A stretch of DNA of 64,000 nucleotides from positions 62,001 to 126,000 of the forward strand of contig JAJECO010000054.1 of the NCBI GenBank assembly GCA_022822005.1, written 5' to 3'. Made by a program: the position numbers and the translations under genes. Below the pieces are notes generated by a model, which worked only from the letters and a program-made list of their open reading frames with translations, was not told the DNA's origin and did no database searches. Shown piece by piece: positions 10,147-22,667 of the stretch. Numbering within the stretch: the first letter of the stretch is position 1; each line of letters starts with the position of its first letter. This stretch comes from Candidatus Poribacteria bacterium (GTDB taxonomy: Bacteria; Poribacteria; WGA-4E; PCPOR2b).

Positions 10147-11202
10147 ATGCAAGCGATTCTCTTGAGTGACGGGAAGCCCGGTCATTATAACCAGTCTTTA
10201 GGTGTGATCGAGCGGATGCCGGAGTGCGAATACCACTGGATTGATGTAAGGTTTCGTAGTAAGCAGCGGGACAATCTGCTGCGGGTGCTAATGCGTCTGT
10301 TTGGCGGATTCAGATTACCGCGTCAGCTTATCAAAGCCTGCTTGCACATGGCACTCGAGCGAGACACATTGGATGAAATCTATGCCGTTGAGCCTGATTT
10401 TATCCTCTCAACCGGTTCATCTGTCGCTGCACCTAACTTGCTCATCGGACAACTCCTCGACGCAAAGACAGTTACTTGCCGTCGTCCCTCACCGGTCGGA
10501 GTTCACCACTTCGATCTTACTATCCTTCCCCAGATGCATTGGCCCCACCGCAATAGAAGCAACGTTTGCAAAACGCTTGGTGTCCCAAATCGGGTGCGTC
10601 CAGAAAAACTGGAAATGCAGCGGAAAGAACTTCAGGCGGATTTAGATTTATCGAATCAAAGGCGTGTTGGGATCCTGATTGGCGGTGAAGACCGATATGA
10701 TACGATCACTAAGACAACCGCCTGCCGCCTCGTCGAAGTCGTACATCAATTCGCAACAAGAAGAGATATACAACTCTTGTTGACAACCTCACGCCGAACC
10801 CCACTTCCCGTTGAAAATCTGATTAGTGAACAACTTTCAAATACCCAACGCTGCCCAATTCTTGTATTGGCACATGGCGAGGAGTCGCTTACGGATCCGG
10901 TCGGGACCATTTTCGCTCTATCGGATGTGATTGTCGTTACCGAAGATAGTTTCTCAATGGTATGCGAAGCCGCAAGCAGCGGTAAGCGGGTGATTATTCT
11001 GGAGGTCGATCGCAAAACCCGGCATCGTCCCAAACGGGACAAAGTCTACTCAGAAATTATGCGTCATGCCTCGGTGAAGCGGTCTGACGTTGAGGATTTG
11101 GAGGCAAGCCTTGAGGCTGCCTTCGCGGATGAGAATCCCATCCAATTGTTGCAGGACACGCAGCAAGCTGCAACGGCAGTCAGGCAGCTGCTCAAAAATT
11201 AA
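10147..11202 (+). CDS. ELM1/GtrOC1-type protein (mitochondrial-fission ELM1 family, DUF1022)
   Basis: This 351-aa protein belongs to the ELM1/GtrOC1 family, a group with a glycosyltransferase-like fold whose bacterial function is not well established. Recognisable parts are the start AILLSDGKPGHYNQSLGV, the first-domain strand EPDFILSTGSS, and RRVGILIGGEDRYDTIT at the domain boundary. The second domain has FALSDVIVVTEDSFSMVCEAASSGKRVIILEV, the S-x-x-SE-A-like nucleotide-sugar-binding region. No clear ribosome site precedes the ATG. A role in envelope glycan modification is plausible but unproven. The nearest gene on the same strand is the STAS gene, 138 nt upstream. Confidence 0.8.
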   Translation: MQAILLSDGKPGHYNQSLGVIERMPECEYHWIDVRFRSKQRDNLLRVLMRLFGGFRLPRQLIKACLHMALERDTLDEIYAVEPDFILSTGSSVAAPNLLIGQLLDAKTVTCRRPSPVGVHHFDLTILPQMHWPHRNRSNVCKTLGVPNRVRPEKLEMQRKELQADLDLSNQRRVGILIGGEDRYDTITKTTACRLVEVVHQFATRRDIQLLLTTSRRTPLPVENLISEQLSNTQRCPILVLAHGEESLTDPVGTIFALSDVIVVTEDSFSMVCEAASSGKRVIILEVDRKTRHRPKRDKVYSEIMRHASVKRSDVEDLEASLEAAFADENPIQLLQDTQQAATAVRQLLKN

Positions 11203-11466
11203 CCGTCTGAACTAGGATTTTAACGCAAAGCCGTTAAGATGCAAAGAACAGTTTTTATTATTTTGGCTCATGTTAAGAAATCGTGCAAATCCCGACTCCG
11301 TCGAGGACTCACGCTATGCGGAGGAAACCGAGTTTTTTTTTCAAAACTCGGTTTCTCTTCGCATTTTGCACTTTCTTTTGATATGAACTATCATTTTTTC
11401 TTCTTACGTCCTAGTATCCTTACGTTCCTTTCCAATGTTTCACGCTTCACGTTTCACGCAGCATTC
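11203..11466. other. Gene-free gap containing a 13-bp palindrome
   Basis: GAAACCGAGTTTT (11324-11336) and AAAACTCGGTTTC (11343-11355) form a perfect 13-bp stem between convergent genes. It belongs to the ACCGAGTTT hairpin family. A TTTCACGCTTCACGTTTCACGC stretch around 11437-11460 resembles, inverted, the sequence near 7851-7875. I see no gene or T-tailed terminator here. Confidence 0.7.
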
Positions 11467-12336
11467 CTACCACGGCATTGTGCGATTGGTGTGCTTGCGA
11501 CCGATAGTCGCAACGTCTTCACCGCATGAAGGGATGCGAACACCGTCGTCGAGTCTCTCAACGATGTTGTCTGGAGTCACACCGTCCAGGAACGCGATAT
11601 TTTCAGCGTCACAGGCAGCCTTTACACGTGTACGCGCGTTTGCGCTCTCTTCTGCGTAGGACGGATCATCCCTATCGATGTAACCGTGTGACAGTGCCAT
11701 ATCCCCCGGACCCCATTCTGCAAAGGCGATGCCGGGAACACGTACCGTTGCTTCAGCGTTACTCAGCGCACGTTTGTTTTCAATCTTTAAGCCGAGAAAG
11801 ATTTCACCTTCCGGATTCAGGGGCCACACATCGGCGCGTCTCATGTATTCCTCTACTGATAAGCCCCAAATTTCTGCCGCACCCCCCTGTCCGCCGGCAC
11901 CGCGCCGTCCCACATCAAGTCCTTTTCCAACGCCGATTGTATAGAACGGATAGCGCGCAGATTCAACGAGCACCTTCACTGCGCCGGGCGTTTCTGCGTG
12001 GCACAGCAGGATGCCGTGAACACCTCTTGCGAGCACCTGTTTAACCATCCAAGCGTTCGCGCGCATGACGTGCTCATCAGTCCCGTCTGTCGGCAGTGTG
12101 GTGATGACTGTCGGCGTGTGATGTCCGCTTTTCGTGGGACCGCTTGCAGCTAAGCCTTTCATAAATGCGTCCAAGCCTGCGAGGTTAAACGTTCCATGTT
12201 CCATCTCGACTACGAGATAATCTGACCACGTCTGGGAGGCTTGCACACCCCCTTCGTAGCTGAGTTCTCTCGGGCTGGAATAGTAGACTGGTTGACCCTG
12301 TTCGAGCAGTTCGATTGCCCGATTGACTCTTGCCAT
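11467..12336 (-). CDS. HpcH/HpaI aldolase/citrate lyase family protein
   Basis: This 289-aa TIM-barrel protein of the HpcH/HpaI family is expected to perform metal-dependent aldol cleavage or condensation with pyruvate-type donors. Characteristic elements are LVVEMEHGTFNLAGL (the D/E-x-E-H metal-side strand), VLARGVHGILLCHAETPGAV, EIFLGLKIENKRAL (the Glu metal ligand in the IE-N context) and VPGIAFAEWGPGDMALSHG. The last corresponds to the G-P-x-D-L/M motif that supplies the metal-binding Asp. The substrate-specifying end is divergent, with RRGAGGQGGAAEIWGL inserted in the middle. GAGAGGTG precedes the ATG. No pathway neighbours help to specify it. Confidence 0.85.
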   Translation of the reverse strand: MARVNRAIELLEQGQPVYYSSPRELSYEGGVQASQTWSDYLVVEMEHGTFNLAGLDAFMKGLAASGPTKSGHHTPTVITTLPTDGTDEHVMRANAWMVKQVLARGVHGILLCHAETPGAVKVLVESARYPFYTIGVGKGLDVGRRGAGGQGGAAEIWGLSVEEYMRRADVWPLNPEGEIFLGLKIENKRALSNAEATVRVPGIAFAEWGPGDMALSHGYIDRDDPSYAEESANARTRVKAACDAENIAFLDGVTPDNIVERLDDGVRIPSCGEDVATIGRKHTNRTMPW

Positions 12337-12929
12337 TTATGCACCTCTCTAAGTGTTGGATATAGAATCTAATTAACTTTCAAATTAATAAAAATATACC
12401 TCGGTTCCAGTGAGAGCGGGGAGACAATTAAAAAAGTTTCGTAGGGTGTGAGGGAACCTCACCCATTTTATGGTAAAAATGATAATTACTGATACATTTG
12501 AATAATAACCACTGGTGTTAGGTTGCAGCTGTTGATAACGTCAAACGTGATGCCCCGATACATCCCCGATACATCGGGACAGGCGGGACAGGCTGTGAAA
12601 CATCAAAACTATTGGCTCTTGGGTGCCTTTAGCCCCGGAGGGGCGACATGTTTATAGCACCTCTCACTAAATAGCACCAAAGGTTAATATGTATATTTAT
12701 TTGTATTGTTCACCATAATATGCGGCGGTAGGGTTTTCGATTGTTTGTTTTTTGAGTCATTGATCTGAGTATAGATACGCATATACCATCAATGCCAGAA
12801 AAACTGGGGAACCGATTTTTTTTCGTTGCAGTGCAACCTCCAAGCAACTTAATGTATCTAATTATTAAATAGTTTCGACGTTTTATTGAGAGACTATTGT
12901 TATTTCTGTCTTTGGATTGGGAGGTTGTT
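12337..12929. other. Gene-free region with dispersed repeats
   Basis: This region of about 590 bp separates the aldolase and the giant sigma-factor gene, which are divergent. It holds CCCCGATACATCCCCGATAC with ATCGGGACAGGCGGGACAGG (12551-12590), close to 22796-22823. It also holds TTTAGCCCCGGAGGGGCGAC followed by ATGTTTATAGCA (12628-12659), close to 37535-37565. The rest is AT-rich, with no coding signal on either strand. Confidence 0.7.
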
Positions 12930-15900
12930 ATGCGTTCAGACGACGAAAAGTTAGTGTCCCAAACACTCGCAGGCGATCGGGACGCCTTCGGGGTGCTAGT
13001 CCACAAGTATCAGGAAATGGTCTACGCCTACGCTTTTCAGAAGGTGCGGAACGAAGCGGATGCACAGGATATCACGCAAGAGGTCTTCTGGCGAGCGTAT
13101 CACCATCTCTATCAACTCCGGCGTCCGCATCGGTTCCGAAGTTGGCTCTACACAATCATGGCCAACCAGTGTAAGCGCCAATTGATGAACGTTACCAAAA
13201 CACGTCAGCGCGAAACTGCATTGGCGGATGCGACGGACGATGCCCTACGGATTGAGCCGGCGCACGCCGTTCCCACAGAGGGTTGGCGGGTAGATTTAGA
13301 GCAGGCACTCACTGAGCTTCCCGATGACAATCGGGTTGCGGTGTCGATGTTCTATATGGGCGACCATTCGTTGAAGGAGATCTCCGAATTTCTCGGTGTA
13401 TCTGTCAACACGGTTAAGAGTAAGTTGTATCGTGCGCGTCAGCAACTTGGGAGTGCGCTATCTGAACGCTATGGCAGCTTTTTGAAGAGTCACAAGCTCA
13501 AAGGGGGTTTTCTGATGCAATTCATGGAGCAAATTCGGCATGTCCCGTCGCCGACAATGGCGTTGTCGTGGAGTGGTACAGCTATTGGCAAAATAGCATT
13601 CTCGCTAATCATGGCAGTGTGTGTGTTCATTGGGATTGCTAGGCATGGAACCGATTCGCCAACCATTCCACCAATGAAGCGAGTCGGAGCGGGTCCAACC
13701 GAAGTGGTGCTGTTGGGACCGACTGTCAATTCAACACGCTCGTCAATCCCGATTGTTCCTGTACAAACGGAAAATCGTCCACCAGCCGGTTCTAGCCGTA
13801 CTTCAGGCGACCGGGGGCACCAGCTGACTGCTCGCAGGGCAAGCCTAGGGCGCGGAGGCGGTGTGCAACAGCCCGCCGGGGCAGTGTGGGGCAGATTCCA
13901 AACACTAACCTTCTCTGGCCGCGTCGTTGACAACAACGGGGTGCCGGTAGCGGATGCTGAACTTCGATACGCCATAAGATCCTATCCACTTGAAGGGGAT
14001 GCCGAATCCGGGTACTCTACTTACCCTGATCCTAAATATGTAACCCGCACGGAGAGGAATGGGACCTTTCGTTTTAAATTTTCACCATCCGAACGCAGGT
14101 GGATGCATTTTGAGTCCAAGAAAGTGCTGAATCGTCTGCATCTGGCTGTTATACATCCCGATCACGCAATCTGGTGGCAAGAGTTCCCGTTCCAAAGCAC
14201 GACGGATATTGAGATTCAACTCGAAATACCGGGGATTATCTCTGGTAAAGTGATGAACGAGGCAGGTGAGCCGATTCAGAACGCGGAGATACTGATGAAT
14301 TCCTTGTTTCATGGTGACCCAATGCTAAGGGAATCCGAAGATAATTTAATGCCTGATGCTTTGCCTCAACCCGTCAAGACAGATGCGAATGGGGAATTTG
14401 TCCTCCGTGGCTTGCCGCAAGGGGCGACAACTAATTTTGATGTCCAAGGACCGGGATATGCGAAGCAGAACCGCTATGGTGTACGAGTCGGTACAGAGGG
14501 ACTTGAGTTCCAGCTAAAGCGTGAGAGCAGGGTTGAGGGGCGCCTCACCTATGCAGGAACTGGCAAACCAGTCAAAAACGCAGGAGTAGTGCTAGAGGGG
14601 GGGCAGCCAACCCACGGGTGGAGATATGTACACGTTGATGCAAACGGGAATTATTTTTTAACAAATCTTGCCGCTGGTACGTACAGCCTCTATCTCAATT
14701 ATGGGCCAAAAGGGTGGACAGCTATTGCCAAAGAATTCATTACGATCCCTGAAGGACAGACCGTCTCTAACGTAGACCTGACTCTGATTCGAAGTGGCTT
14801 TATCACTGGGCGAGTGACCGACCGGGACACGAACAAACCGATTGCCAACCACCGTATCAGATTAAAAGATGCGGCTCGTCCAGAGGGATCCCAGTTGAGG
14901 GATCACCGTACGAAAACGGATAAAACTGGTGTTTATCGCTTCGACGCCGCGCCCGGTCGGGCGCTCGTCCACACCAATCCACCGGTGGGCTATCAAGGTT
15001 TTGGACGAACTGGGGCTCTCAATATCGGACAAATTCAGAGACGTGTGGAGGTCGTTGAAGGTGAAACCGTCGTCGTTGATTTTCAGTTTTCGAGAGGGGT
15101 CGAGTTGGCTGGTCGGCTTTTTACAAAGACCGGTGAACCGGTCGCTGGCGCGAGCATTGCTAATGTTCAGGACTGGCATACAGAGTATGGTAGATCGGAC
15201 GAATCGGGTGGGTTCACTATTGGCGGACTGCGCCCCGGCCAGAGACTCGGTCTCAAAGCAGAACATGGCGAATTGGGGTTGCGCGGAACGATAGAGATTG
15301 TAGTCCGGCCATGGTTACCGATTGATATTCGGATGAAACCCTACGAACGGGTCAAGGTCTCCGGACGAGTGATTGACCCTGAAGGAAAACCGATGCCGTC
15401 GATGAAGGTCCATTTAACACGATGGCACTTGTACGGAGGGTACGGCACAGATGTCGCCGTGACGGGTGACGATGGCTGGTTCCGGGGGATTGAGCTCATC
15501 GTCGGTGACAAATACACTATCTCTGTGGAAGCGGAAGGGTATCGGGAAGCGACAACTGATCAGTTTACGGCAACAGCGGAGATGACCCAAATCGCGGATC
15601 TCGTCCTTCTGCCGGCGGGTGGTCAGTTTTTCATTGAGGGACGTGTCACCGATACCTCCGGCGAGCCGGTTCGTGCTGCACGGCTAGGCATAAGTCAGGG
15701 GGGACAACACTGGTTAAGGTACACCGATGAGAACGGCAACTATCGTTTTGAAGACCTTTCTATGACAGTTATCCTCACGCTATATATTCACCATCCGGGG
15801 TACACGGAACATGAATTCAATATCTTGAAGACCAACCAACGACACGACTTGGTACTGGTCAAGGCGGATGGATACCTTGCTGGGAAGGTTGTGGACACCG

Positions 15901-16649
15901 ATGGAAAACCGATTGTTGAGCAGGTAAGGGTGAGAATAACAGCCAAAGAAGATCCCTCATCCGGCTATCGCTACTCCCCCAGTGCCCTGACCAACCCACA
16001 GGGCGAGTTTGAACTGAAGCACATCAAAGACCCAATTGTGTCAATTATAGTCAGTGATGAGACCGGCTTCAATTTTTTTAAATTTTTTGAGAACATACCA
16101 GTGAATCAAGGTGATTTGATCTTGACCTTATCACCGCCCAAATCAAGCCCCGGCCTGACCCCCGAACAGCTAGCAGAACGGTTATACTCCCAAGCTTGTA
16201 AGGAACGCTCCAAAACCTTAGTGAACCAACCCGCACCGGAGTTGGGGGTTGCCGAGTGGCTGTATGGTTCCCCTATCTCCATTGAGGGTCTAAAGGGAAA
16301 GACAGTTGCCCTGCATTTCTGGCGTTCGGCGGGCTTTGACCTTCATCAAGTAAGCATGCTGAATGTCTTGCAGGAGGTCTATCAAGAAAAAGGGCTGGTC
16401 TGTATCACCATCTGCCCCGCCTCTACAGTGGTTGAGACAGTCAAGCGATATATAGCAGAACAGTCGGTGTCTCACCCAATCGCGCTAGATCAGCCAACAA
16501 CAGTCGTCGGTGCGGAAGGCGAAACCTTCGATCGATACGCTATTGGATGGTCGACTCCATTCGTGCTGATTAATACGGCAGGAGAAATCACCGGACATAT
16601 CCGGGACGATGAACTTGAAGATCAGATTCAGATTTTGCTTGCAGATTGA
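12930..16649 (+). CDS. Giant membrane-tethered sigma factor: ECF sigma, TM, carboxypeptidase-regulatory repeats, redoxin-like end
   Basis: The 1239-aa protein starts as an ECF sigma factor. Region 2 lies around 10-85 (NEADAQDITQEVFWRAY), and region 4 around 120-180 (ISEFLGVSVNTVKSKLYRARQQL). One membrane helix follows at about 217-237. About 800 residues of repeated beta-rich modules come next, of carboxypeptidase-D regulatory/SdrD-like type, with recurring patterns such as GxVxDxxGxPIxxAxI and DxxGxFxxxGL. The last 150 residues resemble AhpC/TSA-type thioredoxin folds (NQPAPELGV, GLKGKTVALHFW, STPFVLINTAGEI). The expected CxxC is absent (FWRSAGFDLHQ), so redox catalysis is unlikely. GGGAGG lies five nucleotides before ATG 12930. 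The layout implies a one-piece transmembrane transcription regulator whose large outside part senses surface material; this is inference. Confidence 0.85.
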   Translation: MRSDDEKLVSQTLAGDRDAFGVLVHKYQEMVYAYAFQKVRNEADAQDITQEVFWRAYHHLYQLRRPHRFRSWLYTIMANQCKRQLMNVTKTRQRETALADATDDALRIEPAHAVPTEGWRVDLEQALTELPDDNRVAVSMFYMGDHSLKEISEFLGVSVNTVKSKLYRARQQLGSALSERYGSFLKSHKLKGGFLMQFMEQIRHVPSPTMALSWSGTAIGKIAFSLIMAVCVFIGIARHGTDSPTIPPMKRVGAGPTEVVLLGPTVNSTRSSIPIVPVQTENRPPAGSSRTSGDRGHQLTARRASLGRGGGVQQPAGAVWGRFQTLTFSGRVVDNNGVPVADAELRYAIRSYPLEGDAESGYSTYPDPKYVTRTERNGTFRFKFSPSERRWMHFESKKVLNRLHLAVIHPDHAIWWQEFPFQSTTDIEIQLEIPGIISGKVMNEAGEPIQNAEILMNSLFHGDPMLRESEDNLMPDALPQPVKTDANGEFVLRGLPQGATTNFDVQGPGYAKQNRYGVRVGTEGLEFQLKRESRVEGRLTYAGTGKPVKNAGVVLEGGQPTHGWRYVHVDANGNYFLTNLAAGTYSLYLNYGPKGWTAIAKEFITIPEGQTVSNVDLTLIRSGFITGRVTDRDTNKPIANHRIRLKDAARPEGSQLRDHRTKTDKTGVYRFDAAPGRALVHTNPPVGYQGFGRTGALNIGQIQRRVEVVEGETVVVDFQFSRGVELAGRLFTKTGEPVAGASIANVQDWHTEYGRSDESGGFTIGGLRPGQRLGLKAEHGELGLRGTIEIVVRPWLPIDIRMKPYERVKVSGRVIDPEGKPMPSMKVHLTRWHLYGGYGTDVAVTGDDGWFRGIELIVGDKYTISVEAEGYREATTDQFTATAEMTQIADLVLLPAGGQFFIEGRVTDTSGEPVRAARLGISQGGQHWLRYTDENGNYRFEDLSMTVILTLYIHHPGYTEHEFNILKTNQRHDLVLVKADGYLAGKVVDTDGKPIVEQVRVRITAKEDPSSGYRYSPSALTNPQGEFELKHIKDPIVSIIVSDETGFNFFKFFENIPVNQGDLILTLSPPKSSPGLTPEQLAERLYSQACKERSKTLVNQPAPELGVAEWLYGSPISIEGLKGKTVALHFWRSAGFDLHQVSMLNVLQEVYQEKGLVCITICPASTVVETVKRYIAEQSVSHPIALDQPTTVVGAEGETFDRYAIGWSTPFVLINTAGEITGHIRDDELEDQIQILLAD

Positions 16650-17704: not shown

Positions 17705-18874
17705 TTACTCGAAAGGGTGAAATTCGCCGTCCTTGATGATTAGCATAAATGGATCGTAGACCGTGTCCCCGACAGCGTTAAAGGAGAACTTACCCAACAC
17801 GGTATCAAAATCCGAGAGATTCGCCATGGCGTCTCGAATTGCGGTTGAATCGGTGGATTGGGCGTTGGCAATCGCTTCCGCCAAAATATAGAGTGAGGTG
17901 TACGACTGGGCTGCCCAGATGCTTGGCTCAACGCCGTATTTCTCTGTATAATTCTGGACGAAGGCTTGGTTTCCCGGTGTATCAGCGGTGCTGAGCCAGC
18001 TTGCAGAGGTTATCAGACCTTCGGCGGCATCGCCTGCGGCTCGGACTTCATCAACACTGACTTGAGCAACAATAAAGGGAATTGAGTAGGGAATACCGAG
18101 TGCACGCGCTTGAATCATAATGTCAGGCATATCTGTTGGCAAAGCGGAGATAAAGATTGCATCAGGATTTAGGTCCTTGATACGATTCAATTGCTCGGAA
18201 AGGTCGGTATCGCCACTTTGGAAGACTTCTGTGGTAAGAATCTCGACACCGCTTTCGATGAGGGCATCTCGCCATACCTGATCGCTATTCCGGGCGACGA
18301 GTTCGACGCTGTCAACGATGGTCACTACCCGTTGATAACCGAGTTTTGCGTGCGTTAGCTTGACACTGTGCGGGATAACCACATCTGCGGTGAGGCTGGC
18401 ACGAAAAACAAAATCACCAATCGCGCTCAAGCCGGAGGCACCCGAAGTTGGGCTGAGTGCTACAACTTGGTTCTGTTGTGCGATTGGGAATGTTTCTCTT
18501 GCCGCGCTTGAACTGGCAGGCCCGAGTATAGCAGCTACGCCATCTTGATGGATTAGTTTATTAAAGGCGTTAACGGCACCCTGAACATCGGTCTGATCGT
18601 CCTCAATGATAAACGTAATTTTCGCACCGTTGAGTTGTGAGTGGTTAATCTCTTCGCGAGCCAACTCAAAACCTTCTCCCATCCGCAAGCCAATCGCGGC
18701 GAGTCGCCCTGTAATTGGCAAGACGACGCCGATGGGGATCTCTCCGGTGAGTTCTTCCATTTGAGGCGTTGTGGGGATGAGAAGTTGCCCAATCTGATCA
18801 CAGGCAGAAAGCCCCGCAATCAGGGCGATAATCGCCAAAACAAACGCAAATGTGGTGAACCTTCTGATATTCAT
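17705..18874 (-). CDS. Leu/Ile/Val-type ABC substrate-binding lipoprotein, paralogue 1
   Basis: This 389-aa periplasmic binding protein (Peripla_BP_6, LivJ/LivK/urea-amide type) has lipobox LSAC with Cys25. The mature chain starts DQIGQLL. Family features are IPIGVVLPITGRLAAIG, KITFIIEDDQTD, AILGPASSSAARETFPIAQ and ALSPTSGASGLS. An in-frame extension upstream into the intergenic repeat is rejected because ATG 18874 has TAAGGAG seven nucleotides before it. No permease or ATPase gene is nearby, so it is either served by a transporter elsewhere or acts as a receptor. It is the last of seven tandem copies in transcription order. Confidence 0.9.
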   Translation of the reverse strand: MNIRRFTTFAFVLAIIALIAGLSACDQIGQLLIPTTPQMEELTGEIPIGVVLPITGRLAAIGLRMGEGFELAREEINHSQLNGAKITFIIEDDQTDVQGAVNAFNKLIHQDGVAAILGPASSSAARETFPIAQQNQVVALSPTSGASGLSAIGDFVFRASLTADVVIPHSVKLTHAKLGYQRVVTIVDSVELVARNSDQVWRDALIESGVEILTTEVFQSGDTDLSEQLNRIKDLNPDAIFISALPTDMPDIMIQARALGIPYSIPFIVAQVSVDEVRAAGDAAEGLITSASWLSTADTPGNQAFVQNYTEKYGVEPSIWAAQSYTSLYILAEAIANAQSTDSTAIRDAMANLSDFDTVLGKFSFNAVGDTVYDPFMLIIKDGEFHPFE

Positions 18875-18913
18875 ATTGAATCTCCTTATTTTTGAGTTAA
18901 AGGGTGTCAGGTC

Positions 18914-18970
18914 TAAGAGGGCACCCACAAGTTGCTTTGAATCCCGATCCATCGGGGGGAGTGCCCCTAC
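18914..18970. repeat. Inter-paralogue repeat copy
   Basis: GGCACCCACAAGTTGCTTTG and ATCCCGATCCATCGGGGGGA end in GTGCCCCTAC. An almost identical unit lies at 20184-20240 upstream of paralogue 2, so it was probably copied together with the gene. The CCGATCCATCGG core is palindromic. Confidence 0.85.
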
Positions 18971-18980
18971 GTTTGGAGGG

Positions 18981-20153
18981 TTACTCGAAGATCTGAAATT
19001 CACCGTCTTTGACAATTAGTACAATGGGATCGTAAACGGCATCGCCGACTGCGTCAAAAGAGAATTTGCCCAAAATAGTATCTAGATCAGAGATGTTCGC
19101 AAGTGCGTCTCGAATTGCGGTTGCATCGGTGGACTGGGCATCGGCAATCGCCTTAGCGAGAATATAAACGGTGGCATACGCCTGCGCTGCCCAGATGTCC
19201 GGTTCGATCCCGTATGCTGCGCGGTAATTTTGGACGAAAGCTTGATTTCCCGGCGTATCAGCGGTACTAATCCAAGTGGTAAAAGTGATTGCGCCCTCGG
19301 CGGCATCACCCGCGGTTTGAATTTGGCTTGAAGCGAGGGTAAGGGTAATCAGGAAGGGAACGTCCGTAGGAATACCAACTTCGTGTCCTTGCATCATGAT
19401 CACTGGGGTATCTATTGGCGAAGCGGAGACAAAAATTACATCTGGATTTGACTCCTTAATGCGAGTTAATTGCGCGGAAAAATCCGTCTCGCCGGTCTGG
19501 AAGGTTTCTGTGGTCAGAATCTCGACGCCGTTAGCAGTGAGCGCTTCTCTCACCACCGCGTCGCTGTCGATGGAGAAGAGATCAGTTTCATCATATATAA
19601 GTGCAGCACTTTGGTAGCCGAGTTTCTCTTGAGTGATCTTGACACCACTTGGGATCAGCACATCTGTGGTGAGCGCGGTGCGAAAGATAAAATCGCCAAT
19701 CGCACTGAGACCGCGGGCAGCGGAGGTGGGGCTAAGTGCTACAACCCGGTTTTGTTGTGCGATTGGAAACACTGTTTGCCCCTGCGTTGATGTGGCGGGC
19801 CCGAGGATAGCAGACACTCCTTCCTGCTGAATGAGTTTATTGAACGCTGCGACAGCACCCTCAAAGGTGCTTTGACCATCCTCAACAATGAGTTTGATTT
19901 TTACGTCGCTGAGTTGTGAACTGTTTATCTCTGTGACAGCGAGTTCAAATCCCTGTCCCAGCGGCGGGCTATCCAAGCCGAGTCGTCCGGTGATAGGATG
20001 AACGGCGCCGATTGAAATTTCGCCACGTAGTCCTTCCATCTGAGGTGATTCGGGGAGCAGAAGTTGCTGGATCTGATCACATGCGGAAAGTCCGGCGATC
20101 AGCGCGAAAAGCGTCAAAACAGACGCAAATGTAGTGAACCTTCGGGTTTTCAT
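18981..20153 (-). CDS. Leu/Ile/Val-type ABC substrate-binding lipoprotein, paralogue 2
   Basis: This 390-aa Peripla_BP_6 lipoprotein (Cys25 in LSAC, mature start DQIQQLLLP) aligns along its full length with its neighbours. Shared landmarks are SIGAVHPITGRLG, KLIVEDGQSTFEGAVAAFNKLIQQ, ILGPATSTQGQTVFPIAQQN and the common end VYDPIVLIVKDGEFQIFE. ATG 20153 has AAGGAG at normal spacing. Residues after the GRL motif (DSPPLGQGFEL) and in the hinge segment VPFLITLTLASSQIQTAG differ from the other copies, which suggests different ligands. It has its own leader and no transport partner. Confidence 0.9.
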   Translation of the reverse strand: MKTRRFTTFASVLTLFALIAGLSACDQIQQLLLPESPQMEGLRGEISIGAVHPITGRLGLDSPPLGQGFELAVTEINSSQLSDVKIKLIVEDGQSTFEGAVAAFNKLIQQEGVSAILGPATSTQGQTVFPIAQQNRVVALSPTSAARGLSAIGDFIFRTALTTDVLIPSGVKITQEKLGYQSAALIYDETDLFSIDSDAVVREALTANGVEILTTETFQTGETDFSAQLTRIKESNPDVIFVSASPIDTPVIMMQGHEVGIPTDVPFLITLTLASSQIQTAGDAAEGAITFTTWISTADTPGNQAFVQNYRAAYGIEPDIWAAQAYATVYILAKAIADAQSTDATAIRDALANISDLDTILGKFSFDAVGDAVYDPIVLIVKDGEFQIFE

Positions 20154-20183
20154 ATTGAATCTCCTTCTTTTTAAGTGTTTTCC

Positions 20184-20240
20184 TAAGAGAGCACCCACAA
20201 GTTGCTTTGAATCCCGATCCATCGGGGGTGGTGCCCCTAC
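20184..20240. repeat. Inter-paralogue repeat copy that supplies a stop codon
   Basis: This is the counterpart of 18914-18970. The terminal GTGCCCCTAC, read on the minus strand as GTAGGGGCAC, provides the TAG stop of paralogue 3 at 20237-20239, so the repeat abuts or overlaps the 3' end of that gene. Confidence 0.8.
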
Positions 20241-21406
20241 TCAAAGATCTGAAATTCACCGTTTTGGACAATCAGTGCAATCGGGTCGTAAATCGCATCT
20301 CCGACAACATCAAAAGAGAATTTACCCAGAACGGTGTCTATATCTGTGATGTTCGCTAGGGCGTCTCGAATCGCAGTTGGATCGGTGGATTGGGCATCGA
20401 CGATTGCCTTAGCGAGAATATAAACGGAAGCATACGACTGTGCTGCCCAGATGTCCGGTTCGACGCCGTATGCTACTCGGTAATTCTGAACGAAGGCTTG
20501 GTTTTTTGGTGTATTAGCGGTGTTGACCCAACTGGTAAAAGCAATCGTACCCTCAGCCGCATCACCTGCAGCTTGCACATCGGAGGTGGTCAGCGTATTA
20601 ATAATGAAGGGCACCGAATCGGGTATACCGAGTTGGCGCGCTTGAATCAGAATCTCAGGTTTATCTGGCGGCAACGCGGAAACAAAGATGGCATCCGGAT
20701 TTAGGTTTTTGATACGGGTTAATTGTTCGGCAAAGTCGGCATTACTACTTTGGAAGGTCTCTGTGGTCAGAATCTCGACGTTGTTTGTAGTGAGGGCGTC
20801 CTTCATCACTTCGGCGCCATCCACGGAGAAGAGATCGGTTTCATCATGTATAATCGCTACTTTTTGATAGCCAAGTTTCGCTTGCGTTATCTTGATGCCG
20901 CTTGTAATCAGCACATCTGTGGTGAGAATGGTGCGAAACACAAAATCGCCAATCGCGCTCAGTCCACGGGCGGCGGAGGTGGCGCTTATCGCCACAACTC
21001 CATTTTGTTGTGCAATTGGGAACGCTGCTTCGGTCGCGCTTGAGCTGGCAGGTCCGAGGATAACAGGGACGCCATCTTGGTGGATTAGTTTATTAAAGGC
21101 TTCGATAGCCCCTTCAGCGTTGCCCTGACTGTCTTCGGAAATAATCTTGAGTTTTGTGTCGCTGGATTGTGAGTTATTGATTTCTTGAAGTGCCAGTTCA
21201 AAGCCGTTGCCCATCTCCGCCCCAACTGAAGCGAGTCGTCCGGTAGCGGGATAGACAAGACCGATGGCAATCTCCTCGATAGGCTCGTCCATCTGTGGTG
21301 TTGTGGGGATGAGAAGTTGCCCAATCTGATCACAGGCGGAAAGGCCCACGATGAGCGTAACAATCGCTAAGACAGAGACGGATCTGGTGAAACTTCTAAT
21401 ATTCAA
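20237..21406 (-). CDS. Leu/Ile/Val-type ABC substrate-binding lipoprotein, paralogue 3
   Basis: This 389-aa binding lipoprotein (LSAC, Cys25, then DQIGQLLIP) is closest in its leader to paralogue 1. The body has AIGLVYPATGRLASVG, KLKIISEDSQGNAEG, VILGPASSSATEAAFPIAQQNGVVAISATSAARGL and FSFDVVGDAIYDPIALIVQNGEFQIFE. It appears to start with TTG at 21406 (AAGGAG six nucleotides upstream; no ATG at that point), unlike paralogues 1, 2 and 6. Its TAG stop lies within an intergenic repeat. No permease or ATPase is nearby. Confidence 0.9.
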   Translation of the reverse strand: MNIRSFTRSVSVLAIVTLIVGLSACDQIGQLLIPTTPQMDEPIEEIAIGLVYPATGRLASVGAEMGNGFELALQEINNSQSSDTKLKIISEDSQGNAEGAIEAFNKLIHQDGVPVILGPASSSATEAAFPIAQQNGVVAISATSAARGLSAIGDFVFRTILTTDVLITSGIKITQAKLGYQKVAIIHDETDLFSVDGAEVMKDALTTNNVEILTTETFQSSNADFAEQLTRIKNLNPDAIFVSALPPDKPEILIQARQLGIPDSVPFIINTLTTSDVQAAGDAAEGTIAFTSWVNTANTPKNQAFVQNYRVAYGVEPDIWAAQSYASVYILAKAIVDAQSTDPTAIRDALANITDIDTVLGKFSFDVVGDAIYDPIALIVQNGEFQIFE

Positions 21407-21491
21407 TTGGATCTCCTTACCTTTAGGTTAAAAGGACGTGGCATTGTCTTAGGAGGGGGTGTTCCTACGAATTATGCTGGGATTTAGAGGT

Positions 21492-22667
21492 TTATTTGAA
21501 GATCTGGAATTCGCCGTTTTCGACGATTAGCACAACCGGATCGTAGACGGCATCTCCGACAGCGTTAAAAGAGAATTCGCCCAGAACGGTATCGAAATTT
21601 TTGGTGTCTGTGAGTGCGTCCCGAATCGCGGTTGGGCCGGTGGACTGTGCTTCCGCAATCGCTGAGGCGAGGATGTGGACAGCGGCATACGCCTGCGCGA
21701 CGAAGATATTCGGCTCGATCCCGTATTCCGCGCGATACTTCTGAATGAAGGCTTGATTTCTCGACGTGTCAGCCGTGCTTGCCCACCCTGTAAAGGTGAT
21801 TACGCCCTCGGCGGCATCGCCCGCGGCTTGTATCTCGTCGCTGGGCAGTTCGGGAACAATAAAGGGTACTGAGTCGGGTATGCCGACTTGGCGGCCTTGG
21901 ATCAGAATCGCAGATATATCTGGTGATAAAGCGGATATAAAGATAGCATCAGGATTTGCTTCCTTAATACGAGCCAATTGTGCGATAAAGTCGGTATCGT
22001 CACTGTGAAAGGTTTCAGTGATTAGAACCTTGATGCTGCTATCAGCGAAGGCTGCCCTCGCCACCGTGTCGCTATCGATGGAGTAGAGATCGCTTTCATC
22101 GTATATGGTCGCTACCTGCTGGTAGCTGAGTTTCGCCTGGGTTATTTTGATGCCGCTTGGGATCAGCACATCTGTGGTGAGTGCCGCGCGAAAGACAAAA
22201 TCGCCGATCGCGCTCAGACCCGAAGCACCAGAAGTTGGGCTGAATACGACAACTTCGTTCTGTTGTGCTGTTGGGAAAACTTCCTCAGCTTGACTTGAGA
22301 GTCCGGGCCCTAAGATAACGGGGACACCGGCTTGATGAATCAGTTTATTGAATGCTTCAACGGCACCCTCAACAGTGCCCCGATCGTCCTCGATGATAAA
22401 GGTAATTTTTGCATCACCGGGCCAGGAATCGTTAATATCTTCGCGAGCGAGTTCGAAGCCTTGTTGCATGGGTATATAGCCGTACGTGGCGACGAACCTA
22501 CCTGTCAGCGGCAAGGAAGCGCCGATGCGAATTTCTCCCTTGAGCCCTTCCATTTGCGGTGTTGTGGGAAGCAGAAGCCGCTGGATCTGGTCACAAGCGG
22601 CAAGCCCTACAATGAACACAACAATCGCCCAGACCAGCGCAAATCTGGTGAATCTTCTGATGTTCAA
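21492..22667 (-). CDS. Leu/Ile/Val-type ABC substrate-binding lipoprotein, paralogue 4
   Basis: This 391-aa Peripla_BP_6 lipoprotein (LAAC, Cys25) has a TTG start. Distinct features are RIGASLPLTGRFVATYGYIPMQQ after the core strand and REDINDSWPGDAKITFIIEDDRGT. The end, VYDPVVLIVENGEFQIFK, finishes in Lys rather than Glu. The central clamp region FIVPELPSDEIQAAG differs from that of the other copies. Its upstream gap (22668-23027) is full of dispersed repeats, which probably separate its promoter from paralogue 5. Confidence 0.9.
   Translation of the reverse strand: MNIRRFTRFALVWAIVVFIVGLAACDQIQRLLLPTTPQMEGLKGEIRIGASLPLTGRFVATYGYIPMQQGFELAREDINDSWPGDAKITFIIEDDRGTVEGAVEAFNKLIHQAGVPVILGPGLSSQAEEVFPTAQQNEVVVFSPTSGASGLSAIGDFVFRAALTTDVLIPSGIKITQAKLSYQQVATIYDESDLYSIDSDTVARAAFADSSIKVLITETFHSDDTDFIAQLARIKEANPDAIFISALSPDISAILIQGRQVGIPDSVPFIVPELPSDEIQAAGDAAEGVITFTGWASTADTSRNQAFIQKYRAEYGIEPNIFVAQAYAAVHILASAIAEAQSTGPTAIRDALTDTKNFDTVLGEFSFNAVGDAVYDPVVLIVENGEFQIFK

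Follow-up and report, generated by a model that had tools for sequence, protein, structure and literature searches.

The gene at positions 12930-16649 of the window (the whole stretch analysed, 64,000 nucleotides of contig JAJECO010000054.1 in the Candidatus Poribacteria assembly GCA_022822005.1) on balance probably encodes a one-component receptor with a membrane-tethered ECF sigma factor, accompanied by a sigma-less form of the receptor translated from an internal start; release of the sigma domain would lead to activation of its own gene. The elements of the full-length gene are as follows.

12919-12925, + strand: ribosome-binding site of the full-length protein, GGGAGGT, 4 nt upstream of the ATG (duplex of -11.1 kcal/mol with the 16S tail).
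12930-16649, + strand: full-length gene, 1239 aa, with ECF sigma domain, linker, transmembrane helix, CarboxypepD_reg repeats and redoxin-like end (open reading frame and Pfam).
12996-13184, + strand: Sigma-70 region 2, residues 23-85 (Pfam PF04542, Sigma70_r2, 51.7 bits, cutoff 24).
13290-13448, + strand: Sigma-70 region 4, residues 121-173 (Pfam PF08281, Sigma70_r4_2, 55.0 bits, cutoff 25.7).
13581-13637, + strand: transmembrane helix, residues 218-236 (hydropathy scan, mean hydropathy 2.35), the sole hydrophobic segment.
13887-16124, + strand: CarboxypepD_reg-like repeats, residues ~320-1065 (Pfam PF13620, eight stretches, 211.9 bits; outer limits approximate).
16224-16613, + strand: redoxin-like domain without CxxC, residues 1099-1228 (Pfam PF08534, 24.2 bits, below the cutoff of 26.6).

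The frame opens with ATG and runs through 1239 codons without internal stop or frameshift; the anti-Shine-Dalgarno tail of the 16S rRNA, GGCTGGATCACCTCCTT, was located in the same genome. Sigma regions 2 and 4 are the only ones present and both score above their curated cutoffs, as is characteristic of an ECF factor, and TIGR02937 matches the protein with 83.1 bits against a cutoff of 42.9. The redoxin-like end is also recovered by phmmer against PDB sequences (ResA, 4nmu, E 4.6e-7, residues 1092-1233). As none of the 13 family copies having this region contains CxxC (19 aligned rows, six without the region), it is a conserved domain but probably no redox enzyme. AlphaFold models, each computed from five sequences of the window and related loci, have a mean pLDDT of 49 for residues 1-260 and of 45 for the last 255 residues, too low for the models to be used. 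The combination of sigma factor, membrane helix, repeats and CxxC-less redoxin end in a single 1239-residue frame, proposed in an earlier note made from the DNA letters, is thus borne out by Pfam, hydropathy and phmmer, and its figure of about 800 residues for the repeats is approximately correct. Among the Pfam families listed for the protein, zf-HC2 gave no match (25 of 27 families), nor did FecR (25 of 27 and 25 of 112), the anti-sigma type found in the extension of the sigma factor IutY; no class-I anti-sigma domain was recognised in the 40-residue linker.

Sigma domain and transmembrane helix are joined in frame, with no stop between them, in all 15 members of the family, which come from seven Poribacteria genomes. 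Nine of these proteins have 1058-1250 aa and one runs off its contig; the remaining five have 447-790 aa, and some of these contain stops or a frameshift. Such short members, together with the deletion of the sigma domain in one paralog, could be taken to mean that the surface protein is decaying and its sigma domain a relic, which is very improbable in view of the selection acting on the gene. Across five fused pairs dN/dS is 0.06-0.16 in the sigma domain, 0.11-0.22 in the linker and helix and 0.21-0.36 in the repeats, with 0.17-0.42 in the redoxin (four pairs); the Pfam scores of the sigma domain lie well above cutoff, and the promoter motif discussed below is conserved as well.

The earlier note had treated the fusion as a single oddity; sigma-transmembrane fusions instead form a receptor class that extends through the phylum. 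Sigma-like matches number 40 in the genome of the window, and many of their frames span 400-1258 aa; a match at E<=1e-25 was found in 76 of 84 genomes of the phylum. Frame length reaches 400 aa or more for 147 of the 150 best-scoring matches listed, and 900 aa or more for 101. The helix is close to residue 220 in most fusions; many distant sigma fusions have no clear transmembrane segment. Ectodomains vary, including WD40 propellers (the large f3 family), Kelch, C-type lectin, DUF4159, and CarboxypepD_reg with redoxin. In f3 genomes of the order (L084-L096), sigma-transmembrane fusions occur in tandem, with WD40 heads where scanned (e.g., six fusions within 20 kb in L087); near-identical WD40 repeats were sought in one gene and were not found there. 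Since the in-frame fusion recurs in 15 members, with both halves under purifying selection, and comparable fusions occur across the phylum, the sequences indicate that it is no assembly accident.

A second sigma-transmembrane fusion is present in the window at 708-2147 (479 aa, helix at residue 209), with an outer part lacking known domains; more fusions of this class lie just upstream on the contig (L075). In another locus, the repeats of the sigma-less protein L060:377-3313 are closer to those of the window gene than are the repeats of the fused copy on the same contig, whereas its redoxin is more distant, which suggests that ectodomains may have been swapped between paralogs.

The junction between sigma factor and receptor (13500-13517) holds a strong ribosome-binding site followed by an in-frame ATG, AAAGGGGGTTTTCTGATG, with these proposed elements.

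13500-13508, + strand: internal Shine-Dalgarno (SD) sequence AAAGGGGGT, encoding KGG of KGGFLM (-11.2 kcal/mol, exceeding the synonymous null).
13515-16649, + strand: proposed second product, a sigma-less receptor of 1044 aa starting at Met196, with the transmembrane helix as N-terminal signal anchor (Met in 15/15 members; sigma-less paralogs).

The codons at the junction are AAA GGG GGT TTT CTG ATG in the window and xxA GGA GGx TTT CTC ATG in most members, and the helix follows 22 residues after the Met. The SD has a strength of -10.3 to -12.5 kcal/mol in 14 of 15 members, the exception being L067, where it is lost (-4.4). No SD stronger than -3.7 precedes the other conserved internal Met columns, with the exception of column 12, where members whose frame opens upstream have their true start. 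GGC and GGT never occur as the first Gly codon (Ala replaces this Gly in one member), while the residue preceding the two glycines varies (K/R/Q/T/E) and its codon ends in A in 14 of 15 members. A general scan for synonymous conservation gives no more than modest peaks at the junction, and a motif-specific test was used in its place. Although the null for the GG motif is already -8.6, synonymous resampling equalled the observed strength in 0/4000 draws with six representatives at <80% identity and in 37/4000 with three at <75%; with a single representative at <70% the result (455/4000) is not significant.

Three paralogs of the family have lost the sigma domain (in L060, L066 and L065). Two of them, L060:410-3313 and L066:10618-12981, have their start at the corresponding Met, preceded by a ribosome-binding site of the same kind. 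In L060 the sigma domain is deleted, with a remnant of its start upstream, and both the promoter motif (210) and the junction site AAAGGAGGTTTTCTCATG are retained; across its 978 codons the frame shows purifying selection, with dN/dS of 0.20-0.32 in the compared pairs. The L066 frame (10585-12981) likewise opens at AGAGGAGGGATTCTCATG, while L065:6176-8515 has no SD (+0.6). The junction is therefore the only candidate start with a good predicted SD in two of the three.

An internal start is also found in other fusion families. In 66 f3 fusions (WD40 heads, set B; the window family being set A) the junction mostly reads AAG GAG GAA CCG ATG and lies 37 residues before the helix, a position non-homologous to that in the window family. 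Its SD averages -10.8, against a synonymous null of -4.8 (KKEE), and resampling reached the observed strength in 0/4000 draws with 17 representatives, 1/4000 with seven and 1/4000 with five. In the class of about 480 residues that includes the window fusion at 708-2147, GGAGGTCTAACTGCT precedes an ATG eight residues before the helix (ATG at ~1308 in the window copy). In a wider sample, 40 regions were picked from the match lists before the test, a few of them again of f3 type, and yielded 44 sigma ORFs, 20 of which were set aside as short or lacking a transmembrane segment. A junction start, defined by an SD of -8 or stronger, occurs in 11 of the remaining 24 fusions versus 19 of 179 background windows (Fisher p 8e-5). 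An internal start in sigma fusions is thus frequent and enriched, while the idea of a universal rule was rejected at 11 of 24.

It is rather unlikely that only the full-length protein is made, with the SD-like stretch serving as a translational pause that aids membrane insertion, or being simply the DNA of a constrained peptide (KGGFLM or KKEEPM). The stretch does lie shortly before the helix, and the amino acids supply part of the SD strength, as seen in the two nulls given above; sigma region 4 often ends in a KKEE-like sequence. A pause, however, requires no start codon, yet Met is present at the junction in 15/15 members of set A and 61/66 of set B. Two of the five exceptions have GTG (SD -11.0 and -5.0); the other three lack a start codon altogether, and their SDs are weaker (-6.9, -6.9 and -0.2). 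The use of SD-like codons beyond the synonymous null and the sigma-less paralogs that begin at the junction also speak against both variants. With ribosome-binding site and ATG kept beyond that null, two sigma-less paralogs starting there and a comparable start at a different position in a further fusion family, it is probable that the receptor is produced without its sigma domain as well. The earlier note had proposed that all parts are joined in one chain, to be given up if a frameshift or start site were to separate sigma factor and repeats. The frame is single, and a single-chain transmembrane sigma factor stands, given the conserved fusion, the purifying selection and the ECF-type promoter motif; as a description of the whole product the claim falls short, as the internal start very likely yields the receptor alone too.

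A dual product could also arise if the gene were a sigma/receptor operon that lost the stop codon of its sigma gene; the working proteins would then be the internally started receptor and a constitutively proteolysed-off sigma factor, and the link between them would have no signalling role. In sigma/zf-HC2 operons of the same genome, the second gene begins -14, -4 and +3 nt from the sigma stop, which is about the place of the internal start. In two genomes, moreover, a single frame combines a sigma factor with SAICAR synthetase (PurC; L077:3148-4653 and L082:1029-2591), the junction being of the GGAGGATTCAC-GCT-ATG type, and the own genome has a second, separate purC; the same kind of ribosome-binding site recurs at this junction as if any downstream gene could be captured. 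A functionless link is nevertheless decidedly unlikely, because the stop-free fusion is kept in 15/15 members and 147 of the 150 listed phylum matches lie in frames of at least 400 aa.

Upstream of the gene, the family shares a putative promoter.

12835-12861, + strand: ECF-type promoter motif AACCT-N16-ATCTAA, 95 nt before the ATG, shared by the upstream regions of the family.

The pattern AAC[CTA]T-N16/17-[GA]TCT[AT], which was drawn from the alignment itself and thus chosen after seeing it, occurs near the start in 11 of 15 upstream regions, compared with 0.08 expected from Markov-1 shuffles; these regions otherwise align poorly. In L061:7992 the motif lies 199 nt before the start, and in L060:5196 and L069:8968 it precedes the preceding 415-residue gene (with LVIVD repeats in the L060 copy), giving 14 of 15 members with a motif of the AACCT-N16-RTCTAA type. 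This motif resembles the RpoE consensus, and its presence before 14 members implies that the fusion gene may be autoregulated through its own promoter. Genome-wide, the strict pattern has four sites as opposed to 23 for the reversed control, which argues for a small and self-centred regulon; one site precedes an LVIVD gene adjoining the second paralog, the other three look like chance, and no wider regulon was seen with this pattern in the genome of the window. Promoter patterns for two other fusion families are weakly enriched.

A tandem array of similar genes (389-436 aa) resembling periplasmic binding proteins occupies 17705-22667 of the window (- strand); a similar gene in L064 matches Peripla_BP_6, and similar arrays adjoin a sigma fusion in L060 and L062. 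Proteins combining CarboxypepD_reg with a C-type lectin domain (L064:12259-13563 and L065:445-1773) also adjoin sigma fusions and are possible targets.

In the proposed mechanism, the sigma domain would be cytoplasmic, with one helix crossing the inner membrane, while the repeats together with the non-catalytic redoxin-like domain would serve as the sensor, in the periplasm or at the surface. The sigma domain may recognise the RpoE-like promoter ahead of its own gene, as the conserved motif suggests, and the in-frame start at the domain junction would give a receptor without sigma from the same mRNA, so that the amounts of tethered sigma and sigma-free receptor would increase in step, each fixing its ratio to the other. 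A bound ligand or damage to the envelope might then set the sigma domain free, with cleavage close to the membrane as the most likely route, and the freed sigma factor would switch on its own operon. The sigma-less isoform might dilute the sigma-bearing one or oligomerise with it and thereby damp the positive feedback. The tether itself is the likely restraint on the sigma factor, since the linker has no recognised class-I anti-sigma domain even though the genome has ordinary sigma/zf-HC2 pairs. Direct signalling from outside the cell to the polymerase, as the earlier note had it, is still the best reading, and its suggestion of proteolytic release is plausible by analogy with IutY and ECF52; the RseP-type M50 protease of the genome says little on cleavage because it is also present in all 14 control genomes. 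For the phylum, a somewhat more tentative extension, at not quite an even chance, is that Poribacteria possess a large receptor class with sigma factors as cytoplasmic domains, in which an internal start co-producing a sigma-free partner or damper arose independently in several families.

If true, such receptors would connect an outside signal to a promoter by a path that could hardly be shorter, with receptor and sigma factor in one chain. Each genome would employ the class repeatedly, with heads of lectin, Kelch and WD40 type, and the phylum is a common one in sponges. The sigma-less isoform would constitute a general means of tuning a self-activating sigma factor, and gene callers would hide a second protein in such genes.

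A search by title and beginning of abstract found no paper on sigma fusions of Poribacteria or on sigma fusions with internal starts, and none uniting a sigma factor of this build with two in-frame products of one gene; its scope did not extend to the 2021 ECF re-classification and Jogler 2012. Sigma factors with C-terminal extensions bearing transmembrane segments are described for ECF48, ECF52, ECF53 and IutY in the relevant passages of PMC8999054. ECF52 (SCO4117 of Streptomyces coelicolor) likewise joins a sigma factor to a membrane segment and an outer, carbohydrate-binding region, and is reported to regulate its own gene (PMC5826349, PMC8999054). As portrayed in the same passages, ECF52 factors contain a zinc-finger domain and are reportedly confined to Actinobacteria. 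The window gene has no zinc finger among the Pfam families listed for it (other loci of its genome do carry zf-HC2) and differs in its 40-residue linker, CarboxypepD_reg/redoxin ectodomain and internal start. IutY (ECF243, Pseudomonas putida) is also a sigma factor fused to a membrane-bound regulator and is freed by proteolysis (PMC8999054); it works in an iron-siderophore pathway and, by that account, has an anti-sigma extension, a domain not found among the families listed for the window gene. Planctomycete ECF sigma factors with WD40 domains (ECF57 and others) parallel the expansion of sigma factors joined to repeat domains, as far as these are outlined in PMC8567305 and PMC8999054, but the window family has other ectodomains. 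Two in-frame products of one signalling gene are known from CheA-long and CheA-short and from other bacterial N-terminal proteoforms, as summarised in part of PMC11005335; unlike the window gene, CheA is neither a sigma factor nor a transmembrane receptor. Fusions of sigma factor, transmembrane segment and ectodomain are thus of a known kind (ECF52, IutY), and what is new is the paired sigma-less isoform.
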